Shown one piece after another: positions 13,964 through 56,582 of a stretch of DNA of 64,000 nt (positions within the stretch are counted from its first letter, which is position 1; every line of letters begins with the position of its first letter). The stretch lies in contig CP128835.1 of NCBI GenBank assembly GCA_030388825.1, positions 3,590,001 through 3,654,000 on the forward strand, given 5' to 3'. Under the pieces are notes generated by a model that was given only the letters and a program-made list of their open reading frames with translations, was not told the origin of the DNA and ran no database searches. The stretch is from Rossellomorea sp. AcN35-11. Lineage in GTDB: Bacteria > Bacillota > Bacilli > Bacillales > Bacillaceae_B. The translations under genes and the position numbers were made by a program.

Positions 13964-13993
13964 CAAAAAATAACGACACCTAAGGATGCCGTT
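13964..13993 (-). terminator. preQ1-controlled terminator of queCDE
   Basis: AACGGCA / TGTCGTT stem with loop TCCTTAGG followed by TATTTTTT. The loop CCTTAG can instead pair with CTAAGG at the end of the aptamer, giving an antiterminator. This is the expected transcription-attenuation arrangement. Confidence 0.85.
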
Positions 13994-13995
13994 TT

Positions 13996-14031
13996 CCTTA
14001 GTTTTTTATAGAGGGTTGTGCTAGAACCTCT
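13996..14031 (-). promoter_or_regulatory. preQ1-I riboswitch aptamer
   Basis: Read on the minus strand, AGAGG-TTCTAGC-..-CCTCT-ATAAAAAACTAA matches the class I preQ1 consensus: a P1 hairpin (AGAGG/CCTCT), the C-rich loop, and the A-rich tail that forms the pseudoknot. It sits about 130 nt before queC with an attenuator terminator just downstream, so excess preQ1 should shut off queCDE. Confidence 0.93.
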
Positions 14032-14151
14032 CGGGACTTATGTTTTAAGCCCCAATTCTTCTTCTTTAGTCCTTACCCAATATAACGTGTTTCCTGAAAA
14101 AAATCTACCGTTTACAGGAATTTCATCTGACTTCACTGCTTTTTCCAGAGT

Positions 14152-36285: not shown

Positions 36286-36944
36286 ACTATCACTCCTTTT
36301 TCAAGCACGTTCTTACAATCATGAAAGGTGTCAAAAGGATGGCAGGCAATTCCTCTTTCTTGACATTTCTGTAAGAGGTAGTCCCTGGCAAATACCCTAT
36401 CACCAAGTTCAGCCATTTCTAAATCTGTGACAGAGTCCCCAATCACAATGATTTCTGTTCCTTCTTTTATAGATAATGTTCTCATGATAGAAGGCTTGCA
36501 GCACCCACACCCTTTATTTTCACAGCCCTCATCACAAGGATGGGGCCAATGGACCTTAATGGTTGATTCATTGAATTTTGCTTCGTTACAATAAACCCCG
36601 TTAAACGGCCCGTATGGTTCCAGCAAGGGATGTACAAAGAAGTCAATCCCACCACTTACGATATATAAAGGAATTTTACGTTCTTTTGTAAACTCTATAA
36701 ATTCCTTGAATCCTTTTCGTATGACAGCTGTATCCAGCAAATACTGGACCATTTCGTCCTTCTGTGATGAAGGAATAAGGGAGAACATCTTACTTACTCC
36801 CTCTTTAATGGGAATTTTCTGCTTCAAGATGTCGTCTTTGATCCCTTCCCATTCAGGAGGGGCAAATGCTTTCATTAATGAAATGATGTTGTCGGTTTCA
36901 GTGATCGTCCCATCAAAATCACAGAAAATAACCGGAACTGCCAC
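36282..36944 (-). CDS. mtnX: HK-MTPenyl-1-P phosphatase MtnX
   Basis: 220 residues, HAD superfamily. Nucleophile motif '[13 protein letters not shown]' near the start, '[10 protein letters not shown]', and '[12 protein letters not shown]' as the last metal motif. It removes phosphate from 2-hydroxy-3-keto-5-methylthiopentenyl-1-phosphate. I pick the GTG at 36944, which shares one base with the mtnW stop (TAGTG); an ATG at 36968 inside mtnW is the alternative. Confidence 0.92.
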
Positions 36945-38159
36945 TATACCTTTACCTCCTCTCCCCATAAGGAAAGTGCTTTTCGAAGTTCATAATGGGA
37001 TTCTGACACCTCGTTGAGGGAGACACCTTTTATAACGGCTTCAATAGCTTGGAGGAATGCCTTTCCACCCCCTATTGCCCCGTCCGGGTGACCGTGAATC
37101 CCTCCCCCCTGCATTAATAACACAATCTTTTCCAAAGTCTTTCACTAAAATCGGAACAAGGCCGGGGTGAATACCGGCTGAGGGAACAGGCAATGTTCTT
37201 TTCAATTGATCATCTTCTTTTGTTAACTGATGGACTATAGACATGACCTGGGCCTTATCTAGTGCGACGCTTCCATATGGTGAAGGAAATAATGAAAAAT
37301 CAGCTCCTGCCATACGCAGGAATTTCCCTAACCACAGGGAAAAGCTCACACCATATACAGGGGATGCAGCAACCGCACCAGCAAACGCGGGATGTGCCAT
37401 GATCGGGAGAGATATTTGGGGGTCTTCCCTCAACTCTTGAAGTACATCCAGACCATAAGAAAATACATTGAATAATAAGGCATCAGCCCCGAGCTCTTTC
37501 GCTTTCCTTGCTTTATCCCTTAAATCAGAAGTTCTGCCTGTAAGATTCACTGCATATAACGTTCTCTTCCCTGTTTCTTCATACACCTCCTCCAGAACCT
37601 TTTTCCCACTCTCGATTCTCTCGACAAATGGTGTTTCTGGGTTATCAAATAGTATTTCATCGTCTTTCACGATATCGACCCCTCCCAGGGCCTGAGCTCT
37701 TAATTGATTCTCCAGATAGTTAAGATCCCTTCCAATCACACCTTTGAAGATGCTCATCAACAAAGGCCTTTCATATATGCCTGTAAGCTCTCTAATTCCT
37801 TCCAGCCCAAATCGCGGACCAGGGTAGCCATTCTTCAAGTCTTTGGAAAACTCTAAATCTACCAGCTTCACTTCCCCGTCCAGGGAAAGCTTACCGAACA
37901 CCGTTGTGAGGATGGCAGGAATATCATTTGAATAATTATGACCCGGATAAGCTATCTGCACTTTCCCCCGATGGCCCCCTGCTTCTTCCCACTCTTTCAC
38001 TGAAATGACCCTGCCCTTGTACTTCCGTAATTGATCCTGCTCTAAGAGGGGTAAATCCGTCCAAGAGCCAACCGTCAATCCCAAAGCCATTCCTTCTGCC
38101 TTCTTTTCGAATGATCCACTCTTTCCCTTGAGTTCATATGTTGCTATCACTTCACTCAT
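36944..38159 (-). CDS. mtnW: RuBisCO-like 2,3-diketo-MTP-1-P enolase MtnW, apparent frameshift
   Basis: About 404 residues after dropping one G from the G6 run at 37104-37109, where 'DCVINAGGG' should run on into '[20 protein letters not shown]'. The RuBisCO-like active-site stretch '[20 protein letters not shown]' (carbamylated Lys, Asp, Glu) is intact. It enolises 2,3-diketo-5-methylthiopentyl-1-phosphate. First gene of mtnWXBD. All other pathway genes are intact, so a real loss is unlikely. Confidence 0.9.
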
Positions 38160-38245: not shown

Positions 38246-38260
38246 GGTTCCTTCACTCTT

Positions 38261-38362
38261 TCTTATCTGTCAGCTTCGTAGCTGCAAGAATTAGCACCGT
38301 GCTCGAATAAGTCGGTTGCCGGGCTTCATAGGGCTGGTCCCTCCGCCTGCTCTTGATAAGAA
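38261..38362 (-). promoter_or_regulatory. SAM-I (S-box) riboswitch of mtnWXBD
   Basis: On the minus strand TTCTTATCAAGAG opens P1, followed by the conserved GGCGGAGGGACCAGCCC, GAAGCCCGGCAACC, GCACGGTGCTAATTC and GACAGATAAGA blocks. It is a compact, canonical aptamer of about 102 nt with a terminator next to it. SAM abundance should stop transcription of mtnWXBD. Confidence 0.96.
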
Positions 38363-40500: not shown

Positions 40501-40608
40501 AAGGATGGTTATTCTTTTTCAAAAAAACGTTGACATGGAAAATAATTCAATGGTACCATTCAAATCAAATGAAACATTCTGAAAGTTTAATCAAATATTT
40601 TACGCAAC

Positions 40609-40764
40609 TCTTATCAAGAGCTGGCTGAGGGATTTGGCCCTATGAAGCCCAGCAACCGACCATAATACCGTTTTAAAACGGGGCGCAGTCTGCGCCGGAT
40701 GGAGACATCCACTAAGGCACGGTGCTAATTCCAACAGAAAGATTTTCTTTCTGAGAGATAAGAG
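40609..40764 (+). promoter_or_regulatory. SAM-I (S-box) riboswitch of mtnKA, enlarged P3
   Basis: CTTATCAAGAG, GGCTGAGGGATTTGGCCC, GAAGCCCAGCAACC, GGCACGGTGCTAATTCC and GAGAGATAAGAG give all S-box blocks. Between the CAACC and GCACGGTGC blocks it holds about 50 extra bases forming three small perfect hairpins: CCGTTTTAAAACGG, GGCGCAGTCTGCGCC and GGATGGAGACATCC. The aptamer is therefore about 156 nt, against 102 for the other copy. Confidence 0.94.
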
Positions 40765-40783
40765 GCGATGAAGACCGTTCTTC

Positions 40784-40816
40784 AAGCCTCTTTCGACCAT
40801 GGAAAGAGGCTTTTCT
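40784..40816 (+). terminator. SAM-controlled terminator of mtnKA
   Basis: AAGCCTCTTTC / GGAAAGAGGCTT followed by TTTC. The upstream AGAGGCG.. of P1 can compete for the CCTC strand as antiterminator. Confidence 0.9.
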
Positions 40817-40879: not shown

Positions 40880-42058
40880 ATGGCAATTACTAAACTAGAA
40901 ACATATCAAGCTTTAACAGAGCAGTCGGCGATAGATCTGGCCTCTCGTTTAGAACTTTTTGAAAAAGGATCAGTTCTAACATGTAAAGAAATTGGAGATG
41001 GAAACTTAAATCTTGTTTTCCATGTGACAGACCTGGAATCCGGGAAAGGAATCATCATGAAGCAAGCTCTCCCCTATGCAAAGGTGGTGGGGGAAAGCTG
41101 GCCGCTAACCCTGGATAGGGCGAGAATTGAAGCAGCCGTCCTTAAACTGCAGAAATCGTTTGTAGGGAATCTCGTTCCTGAAGTGTATTATTCAGATCCT
41201 GCCCTGGCGATAACGGTGATGGAAGACCTGAGTGCCCTGACGATTGTCCGGTCCGGACTGATCAAAGGGGAGAAGTACCCCCATCTTTCTGAAGACATTG
41301 GAACCTTTCTCGGGAAGACCCTTTACTTCACATCGGATTATGCACTTCATCCCTTTAAGAAAAAGGAATATGTGAAAGAATTTTCAAATCCTGAACTGTG
41401 TAAAATTACAGAAGACCTTGTATTTACGGACCCGTTCTTTAACAGTGAAACCAATGAATTCGAGGAAGAGCTGACACAGGATGTGCAGAAATTGTGGGAA
41501 GATTTCACGTTAAAGCTTGAAGTGGCGAAATTGAAGAAAAGCTTTCTCACAGAAGGTGAAGCATTGCTCCATGGAGATCTGCATACTGGCAGCATCTTTA
41601 TTGGCGAGCATCAAACGAAGGTGATTGACCCGGAGTTCGCCTTTTACGGACCGATTGGCTTCGATATCGGGCAATTCATGGCAAACCTTTTGTTCCAGGC
41701 TCTATCAACCCCTCATGGGAAGGATAACATTCTCTATCATATCGAGAATACGTGGACCGTATTTACGAGTACATTCTCAAAACTCTGGAAAGAAAGTGAT
41801 GACGCCTATACGAAAGTGGACGGATACCTTGAATATGTTCTTCAGAAGAGCTTTCAAGACAGCATAGGTTTTGCAGGTTGTGAATGTATCCGGAGAACAA
41901 TTGGACTTGCCCATGTGGAAGACTTAGAAAGCATTGAAGATAAAGAACAAAGGGTAGAAACGAAACGTGCCTGCCTAACACTTGGTAAAGAATTGATTGT
42001 GAAACGGAAACAGATTCATACAATCAATGAACTCATAGCCCTGATACAGTCACATTAA
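40880..42058 (+). CDS. mtnK: Methylthioribose kinase MtnK
   Basis: 392 residues of aminoglycoside-phosphotransferase fold. Catalytic loop 'ALLHGDLHTGSIFIGE', metal Asp in 'VIDPEFAFYGPIGFDIGQF' and nucleotide loop 'EIGDGNLNLVFHV'. It phosphorylates 5-methylthioribose. First gene of mtnKA, with AAAAGGAGG before the ATG, behind the S-box. Confidence 0.96.
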   Translation: MAITKLETYQALTEQSAIDLASRLELFEKGSVLTCKEIGDGNLNLVFHVTDLESGKGIIMKQALPYAKVVGESWPLTLDRARIEAAVLKLQKSFVGNLVPEVYYSDPALAITVMEDLSALTIVRSGLIKGEKYPHLSEDIGTFLGKTLYFTSDYALHPFKKKEYVKEFSNPELCKITEDLVFTDPFFNSETNEFEEELTQDVQKLWEDFTLKLEVAKLKKSFLTEGEALLHGDLHTGSIFIGEHQTKVIDPEFAFYGPIGFDIGQFMANLLFQALSTPHGKDNILYHIENTWTVFTSTFSKLWKESDDAYTKVDGYLEYVLQKSFQDSIGFAGCECIRRTIGLAHVEDLESIEDKEQRVETKRACLTLGKELIVKRKQIHTINELIALIQSH

Positions 42059-42073
42059 TAAAAGGAGAGAATC

Positions 42074-43129
42074 ATGACACAAACGCTTACCATCCCGACT
42101 TCAATAGAGTGGCACGAAGATTATTTACAGATTCTGAATCAACAAAAGCTGCCCCTCATCGAGGAATATATAAAGCTAACTCACATCGAAGAATACTTTG
42201 ATGCAATCACGACTTTAAAAGTAAGGGGTGCACCTGCTATAGGCATCACTGCCGCTTATGGATTAGCCCAGGCAGCAGGCCGCTATGAAACGGATTCCCT
42301 GACAGAGTTTATAGACCTCTTTCAACGTGACAAAAAATATCTCGCTGCTTCCCGACCAACAGCAGTCAACCTGTTTTGGGCATTGGATCGATTGGAAGCT
42401 GTTCTGGAAGATGTTTCGTCGGTCCATGAAGCGAAAACAAATTTACTTCATTGTGCCATCCATCTTCATACAGAGGATGAGGAAATGTGCCGCAAGATCG
42501 GTGAACATGCATTGAATGTGCTGAAAGACAACTATACGATCATGACCATATGTAATGCCGGCTCCATTGCCACTAGTAAATACGGTACCGCTTTAGCACC
42601 CTTTCATCTAGGGAGAGAAAAAGGAAAGAATTTCAAAGTATACGCCTGTGAGACACGCCCGGTTTTACAGGGAGCCAGACTGACTGCCTGGGAACTTCAG
42701 CAATCTGGTGTAGACGTCACACTCATTACAGACAGCATGGCTGCCCATACGATAAAAGAAAAAGGGGTAGAGGCGGTCATAGTGGGGGCTGACAGAATTT
42801 CTGCCAATGGGGATACAGCCAATAAAATCGGAACATCCATGCTTGCCATTTTATGCAAACATTTTCATATCCCTTTTTATGTCGCTGCACCTTCTTCCAC
42901 TTTCGATCTTGCCTCCCTCGAAGGAAGCGATATTCCAATTGAAGAGAGAAATCCGCAAGAAATCACAACTATGGGAGGGACAGTGATTGCACCTGAAAAC
43001 ATTCCGGTTTATAATCCGGCCTTCGATGTCACCCCTCACGACTTGATCACCGGTATCATCACAGAAAGAGGGGTGCTCTCCCCCTGCTTTAAAGAAAGTA
43101 TTCAAGATACGATTGGGTTTAATCAATAG
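42074..43129 (+). CDS. mtnA: Methylthioribose-1-phosphate isomerase MtnA
   Basis: 351 residues. Catalytic Cys160 in '[12 protein letters not shown]' and Asp240 in '[20 protein letters not shown]', as in the B. subtilis enzyme. It turns MTR-1-P into methylthioribulose-1-phosphate, the substrate of MtnB. 15 nt after mtnK; the end overlaps a terminator hairpin. Confidence 0.96.
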
Positions 43130-56416: not shown

Positions 56417-56512
56417 GCTGAGCATAATCATTATGCCAACAAAGCCGATGGAATCAATCCATGAACTGACGACTTTGTTTAGGTAGGACACCTATAGCTA
56501 CTCCCCTTTGAC
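56405..56512 (-). promoter_or_regulatory. yybP-ykoY manganese riboswitch
   Basis: On the minus strand: CAAAGGGGAGTAGC, then GTCGTCAG and, after two helices, CTTTG..GGCATAATG, GCTCAGCAAGACCTTTGCC. These are the conserved loops of the yybP-ykoY class. It controls the TerC gene by transcription attenuation, turned on by Mn2+. Confidence 0.95.
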
Positions 56513-56582
56513 AGGTAGAAAACGTATATGTTGTATACCCATATCTTACCTTATGAATTTCATTTCGTAAAGAAATAAATAA

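Follow-up and report, generated by a model that had tools for sequence, protein, structure and literature searches.

The SAM-IV and SAM-I/IV riboswitches set the precedent for a single SAM-binding core carried by varied peripheral architecture; in the excerpted text of PMC6890682, SAM-IV is described as having no P4 and an added P5 pseudoknot, and the residues around SAM are said to include 44–47 and 57–59. Closer in gene and riboswitch type is the mtnK S-box of Bacillus subtilis, which excerpts of a review (PMC12288461) describe as a SAM-dependent attenuator assisted by a NusG-dependent pause that precedes completion of the aptamer and, by folding predictions, aids its formation. Methionine starvation of B. 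subtilis gave an induction ratio of 45 for metE versus 2.5 for mtnKA according to the excerpted account in PMC8882085, whose authors considered that mtnKA might carry an inactive pseudo-riboswitch or be controlled at the level of translation. That idea sits uneasily with the SAM-dependent attenuation reported in the review. In the Rfam consensus of the SAM-I (S-box) family, RF00162, P3 is a plain hairpin, and in the openly readable literature searched we found no description of a junction in P3.

The locus studied here lies in the window, by which we mean the whole 64,000-nucleotide stretch of DNA analysed, from a genome of 4.8 Mb. Its features, in window coordinates, are as follows.

40530–40559, plus strand: promoter-like hexamers TTGACA and TACCAT, 18 nt apart (consensus scan, 10 of 12 matches).
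40608–40764, plus strand: SAM-I (S-box) aptamer, RF00162 (80.7 bits, model positions 1–108).
40608–40615, plus strand: P1 5′ strand, pairing with 40757–40764 (RF00162 alignment; pair probability 0.92–1.0).
40651–40726, plus strand: P3 junction domain, AGCAACC to GGTGCT (models R1 and R2; covariation in 99 relatives).
40662–40667, plus strand: J5 junction strand AUAAUA, consensus RUAAUA (column counts in 99 domains).
40668–40681, plus strand: hairpin H1, CCGTTTTAAAACGG, loop UUAA here, GNRA in 89 of the 99 domains compared (fold, covariation).
40682–40696, plus strand: hairpin H2, GGCGCAGTCTGCGCC (fold, covariation).
40697–40710, plus strand: hairpin H3, GGATGGAGACATCC, an optional arm that some relatives lack (fold, covariation).
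40711–40715, plus strand: J3 junction strand ACUAA, consensus ending YAA (column counts in 99 domains).
40735–40753, plus strand: P4 hairpin (pair-probability fold).
40757–40764, plus strand: P1 3′ strand (RF00162 alignment).
40784–40812, plus strand: intrinsic terminator-like hairpin followed by a T run (fold, scan).
40880–42058, plus strand: mtnK, S-methyl-5-thioribose kinase (TIGR01767, 539.7 bits).
42074–43129, plus strand: mtnA, S-methyl-5-thioribose-1-phosphate isomerase (TIGR00512, 451.1 bits).
38260–38362, minus strand: compact S-box before mtnW (82.0 bits).

By the features tested, the leader is a SAM-I riboswitch with a P3 architectural variant that lies outside the Rfam consensus. 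A preliminary description of this DNA had recognized an S-box of mtnKA with all conserved blocks, about 50 additional bases in P3 and a compact second S-box in the same locus, and the profile searches bear it out on each of these points: the aptamer scores nearly twice the RF00162 cut-off of 44.4 bits over all 108 model positions, mtnK and mtnA lie downstream by profile, the P3 loop holds 50 residues compared with 4 in the model (63 bases separate the two P3 blocks), and the S-box before mtnW spans 103 nt. With the Rfam family the window shares P1, P2, the base of P3, P4, the conserved blocks and the terminator-like platform ahead of a methionine/SAM gene pair. It departs from the family in P3, where the plain consensus hairpin is replaced by a three- or four-way junction with conserved strands of its own and three hairpins within the P3 loop. 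Because RF00162 accepts insertions in P3 and the score remains above the cut-off, we count this as a variant and not as the failure of a defining feature. Membership in SAM-IV or SAM-I/IV was rejected: RF00162 is the sole family at the site when the best match of the clan is kept, and the window keeps P4 and elaborates P3, unlike SAM-IV as excerpted above. Within 40640–40740 no other Rfam family was found up to E = 5. Downstream, AAGAGGC at 40760–40766 in the P1 3′ strand is complementary to GCCTCTT at 40786–40792 in the 5′ strand of the terminator, making 40760–40766 a candidate antiterminator through which the leader would switch. Such complementarity between the P1 3′ strand and the terminator 5′ strand is the usual S-box arrangement.

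The minimum-energy fold of the whole aptamer (−57.6 kcal/mol, z −4.6) was equalled by none of 200 shuffles, and that of 40660–40724, which contains the insert, by three of 200 (z −2.7). All three hairpins noted in the preliminary description are present as strings and form side by side in the P3 arm of this fold, at 40668–40681, 40682–40696 and 40697–40710, above a short CC/GG extension of P3, with pair probabilities of 0.73–1.0 for H1, 0.66–1.0 for H2 and 0.99 for H3. They had been called perfect, which is true of H1 as a 14-nt palindrome; as a hairpin, however, it cannot pair all seven positions, and the stems comprise 5 bp (loop UUAA) in H1, 6 bp (3-nt loop) in H2 and 5 bp (loop GAGA) in H3. 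The GGGGCGC of H2 resembles the GGTGC block of the S-box. The canonical base of P3 (AGCA/UGCU) reaches a pair probability of just 0.09–0.19 in the window because the energy fold draws P2 longer; it is supported instead by the match to the covariance model and by comparison with relatives. Folding with and without the insert had been proposed as a way of revealing its effect. The same P1, P2 and P4 are predicted when it is swapped for a four-base loop, so that energy folding gives no sign that the insert influences the rest of the aptamer. Across 153 distinct leaders an average of 0.56 of the insert's bases are predicted to pair within the insert and 0.024 outside it, an insulation by which the insert should be able to fold alone during transcription.

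Stronger proof of the hairpins than the energy fold provides comes from comparative pairing. R1, a covariance model restricted to the P3 part, was built from 21 of 33 mtnK leaders of the window's family. It matched once in each of 99 chosen loci, of which 11 come from those 33 leaders and the rest are other loci less some near-identical siblings; since the matches are aligned to R1 the alignment leans towards the model. A second model, R2, was built from the 99. Paired letters fill 98.4% of cells, 13 of 23 pairs have changed on both sides, and double-change cells number 218 against a shuffle mean of 61, while sliding the partner strands as a control lowers pairing to 31–47% of cells. Changes on both sides occur at least once in five of five H1 pairs, four of four modelled H3 pairs, two H2 pairs and two P3 pairs, so that compensatory change in the alignment supports all three hairpins.

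Conservation is not confined to the helices. The J5 strand leading from P3 to H1 is RUAAUA-like, with 97, 95, 99 and 91 of 99 domains agreeing at columns 14, 15, 16 and 17, and the J3 strand returning to P3 ends in AA (columns 145 and 146, 96 and 87 of 99). The H1 loop is GNRA in 89 domains, kept while the sequence of the stem varies freely; the window, with UUAA, and nine others have no GNRA loop. The palindrome that drew attention in the preliminary description is therefore the form of H1 without the common loop, and the window is atypical of its kind in this respect. At least three of the four modelled H3 pairs form in 76 of 99 domains; among the remaining 23 some are misaligned, and about 13 have no H3 by reading. 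As judged from the alignment, the conserved core is P3, the RUAAUA strand, H1 with its GNRA loop, H2 and the YAA strand, with H3 optional. In this architecture P3, H1 and H2 meet through the conserved junction strands in a three-way core, to which H3 adds an optional fourth arm. The unit proposed previously, an insertion of several hairpins, is accordingly replaced by this junction domain, in which H3 is dispensable.

Within the GTDB family of the window, MtnK is detected in 33 of 36 genomes at a threshold of E 1e-40, and one locus was taken per genome. All 33 mtnK leaders carry an insert of 54–66 bases with H1 and H2; H3 is missing by reading in four (L046–L049). Random sequence among relatives, which would have spoken against a structured insert, was not seen in these leaders. 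R1 recovers the 33, the weakest at 28.5 bits, the 21 from which it was built matching by construction, and a 34th match lies in one of these same loci, in reverse orientation. Two further MtnK-like paralogues (L060, L061) showed no S-box in a pattern search. A draw of 299 genomes across the order gave R1 matches in 106 genomes and 34 of 116 genera, at 122 places, and MtnK matches at E 1e-60 or better in 161 genomes. For the 132 MtnK matches that were followed, best first down to E 8e-102 with weaker ones left out, an R1 match lies on the same strand within 1.5 kb upstream in 101 (median distance 143 bases) and is absent in 31; 21 of the 122 R1 matches do not adjoin any of these 132. In a named set consisting of the best 80 of at least 556 confirmed MtnK loci, from genomes that partly overlap the order-wide draw, cmscan and cmsearch found an S-box before mtnK in 78, the two without it being Domibacillus loci. 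Of these 78 S-boxes, drawn from the best 80, 67 reach 41.8 bits or more with R1. Six (L187, L200, L204, L207, L214, L229) score 26–33 bits with P3 loops too diverged to call, and five, comprising four of the five Anoxybacillus loci and one from Halalkalibacter, are compact at 100–109 nt with no R1 match. The insert, thought unusual in the preliminary description, is so among the S-boxes of the window's own genome and is common in mtnK leaders, as the 67 of 78 named and 101 of 132 followed loci attest.

Beyond the order, R2 matched 43 of 398 genomes in a class-wide draw, 20 from the window's order and 23 from two other families, and 5 of 398 in a phylum-wide draw, all from the window's order; both draws used strict filters that lose weak matches. 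None of the draws searched showed the domain outside the class of the window, Bacilli as judged from named relatives. The domain also keeps to its riboswitch. The 299 genomes were searched, allowing one mismatch, with a 24-base consensus that spans J5, H1 and the first part of H2 but none of the S-box core; it occurs at 75 places, all 75 inside R1 matches, and the reversed pattern gave 0 matches. A free-standing module was rejected on this ground, since every place lies within an S-box. A repeat or mobile element was likewise rejected: 40655–40730 is single in its genome, other matches covering 14–26 bases at E 0.59 or worse. An exact 28-base consensus had no match in viral contigs, and a plasmid search with the aptamer returned three records, of which the one examined, from Bacillus velezensis, is an mtnK leader. 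As a control, R2 was applied to 18 other S-box loci of the window's genome and family, where the one score listed, 24.2 bits, belongs to the compact mtnW S-box. In the S-box, a textbook system, many mtn leaders of Bacilli bear a covarying and sequence-conserved P3 domain that the Rfam consensus does not contain. Leaders that have the domain, lack it or have part of it offer a clean natural comparison of the ways in which the periphery of an RNA calibrates its riboswitch.

The genes behind the 99 domains are mostly those of methionine salvage as represented by mtnK, mtnW and the N-terminal frame of mtnA (90 of 99). To mtnK belong 81, of which 78 were assigned by motif and the others singly: L074, whose frame is more than 500 bases away, L165 by TIGR01767, and L059, taken as the leader of an MtnK match. 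Seven domains precede mtnW (two of them, L093 and L123, profile-checked) and two precede frames (L095, L134) of 138 and 145 residues whose match to MtnA is confined to its N-terminal third. Three precede metE, with L083, L102 and, outside the 99, L118 profile-checked over the available stretch, and three precede binding-protein genes: Peripla_BP_4 at L086, SBP_bac_5 at L171, and L089, which resembles L086 by eye. The substrate-binding lipoproteins at L086, L089 and L171 are candidate transporters of methionine or of salvage compounds. The frames that follow L081 and L090 have no NCBIfam assignment at E 1e-10, and L150 is truncated. In a B. velezensis record the domain stands upstream of both annotated mtnK (86.3 bits) and annotated metE (85.2 bits), with just a 27-nt match of 26.4 bits upstream of mtnW, and four genomes of one genus (G144, G171, G245, G308) have it before both metE and mtnK, metE being confirmed by profile in three. 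B. velezensis therefore places the same domain before two genes reported as very unequal responders in B. subtilis. Given this pairing, there and in the four genomes, how large the response is does not depend on the domain alone.

We consider it somewhat better than an even prospect that the leader is a SAM-I riboswitch whose modular, locally folding P3 junction domain serves as a tuning scaffold. Most likely the domain pre-folds P3 and in this way would tune co-transcriptional sensing of SAM. SAM would bind an unchanged aptamer core and switch mtnKA off by termination, with the junction domain closing and holding P3 once it has been transcribed. P3, where we take residues 44–47 and 57–59 to lie, presumably forms one wall of the SAM pocket, and its early closure would bring forward the moment at which the aptamer is ready, before RNA polymerase gets to the terminator. 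The domain may act jointly with NusG-dependent pausing, which is reported for the mtnK leader of B. subtilis; gene and S-box type are the same there and, in the review excerpts, the pause comes before the aptamer is complete (PMC12288461), so that pausing and scaffolding would fit together. The comparison with B. subtilis rests on its relatives B. mojavensis and B. velezensis, whose mtnK leaders carry the domain. That a small folded side domain is kept across many Bacillus relatives suggests an extra layer of tuning. In favor of the scaffold are the covariation, the conserved junction letters, the frequency of the domain before mtnK and the insulated pairing of the insert, together with the confinement of every core-consensus match to S-boxes and the scores of at most 24.2 bits at the other 18 S-box loci. 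Against it stand the unchanged fold predicted without the insert, the unequal responses of metE and mtnKA, the compact mtnK S-boxes of Anoxybacillus and Halalkalibacter, the missing GNRA loop of the window, and unpaired junction letters conserved more strictly than a plain scaffold needs. The TTNTTT motif of NusG was dropped as support for pausing, being patchy and dependent on composition: of 153 leaders, 29 have it in P4 (TTCTTT in the window), 18 in the H2–H3 part, 7 in the 5′ part and 6 after the aptamer, compared with about 2, 6, 2 and 2 in letter shuffles.

The strict conservation of loop and junction can be read in other ways. The GNRA loop of H1 might dock at long range into P1, P4 or P3 itself and lock the SAM-bound state, a role that peripheral contacts play in other riboswitches, and its persistence in 89 of 99 domains on a stem free to vary in sequence speaks for this. 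A receptor should then be seen to change according to whether A or G is the third loop base. Among the leaders in which a GNRA loop is recognized (132 of 153), seven variable aptamer columns pass a shuffle z of 3 (3.3–5.7); all carry at most 0.09 bits with ancestry ignored and none is receptor-like, and ten domains, the window among them, have no such loop to dock. We regard this contact as unlikely. A ligand such as methylthioribose, or a protein, could alternatively be recognized by the domain, which would then be a second receptor nested in the SAM aptamer and gating P3 and the SAM response. The near-invariance of junction letters outside the helices and the salvage genes behind most domains point in this direction, and the weak starvation response of B. 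subtilis mtnKA excerpted from PMC8882085 would suit an extra signal. The same domain, however, precedes metE and binding-protein genes, and its core consensus has no match outside S-boxes in the 299 genomes. Conserved junctions and GNRA loops are, moreover, common in purely structural RNA. A nested receptor is improbable on this evidence, and it is likewise improbable that the near-invariant RUAAUA/GNRA/YAA junction, through recognition by a small molecule or protein, itself decides whether P3 and the SAM pocket form; if it did, these leaders would be two-input riboswitches, an aptamer inside an aptamer.

It could also be that the insertion is variable, tolerated, harmless and of no further function. 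Variable stem-loop insertions are described for riboswitches in general in excerpts of PMC2258182, the domain is missing from some mtnK S-boxes (four of the five from Anoxybacillus), H3 is variable, and the predicted core fold is unchanged without the insert. Neutral sequence would hardly keep its unpaired junction letters nearly fixed in 99 domains, match R1 in 34 genera of the order or show compensatory change in all three hairpins, and we give this account very little credence. The tuning scaffold in P3 is the reading we retain.

Several observations concern neighboring genes and riboswitches. Unlike the compact mtnW S-box of the window, mtnW S-boxes in some other genera have the P3 domain (L093, L094, L101, L115, L121, L123, L149). 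The mtnW frame of the window, 37041–38159 on the minus strand, encodes 372 aa, its fit to the family profile stops at about position 360 of 407, and an MtnW-like C-terminus carries on in another frame at 36944–37135 on the minus strand (by eye); a frameshift seems to lie close to the 3′ end of mtnW, through a real break or an assembly error. Short frames of 130–145 residues follow the domain-bearing S-boxes L081, L090, L095 and L134 and are candidates for broken genes, frameshifts or short proteins. In the window's genome the metK S-box (L011 1501–1648; G000:C1:1878677–1878824) is also long, at 148 nt, with a P3 sequence unlike the mtnK domain, and a compact S-box without the domain (L007; G000:C1:1165357–1165465) precedes a lipoprotein that resembles that of L086 by eye. 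The window further holds a yybP-ykoY manganese riboswitch at 56420–56518 on the minus strand (56.1 bits) and a PreQ1 riboswitch aptamer at 13992–14036 on the minus strand (49.9 bits).
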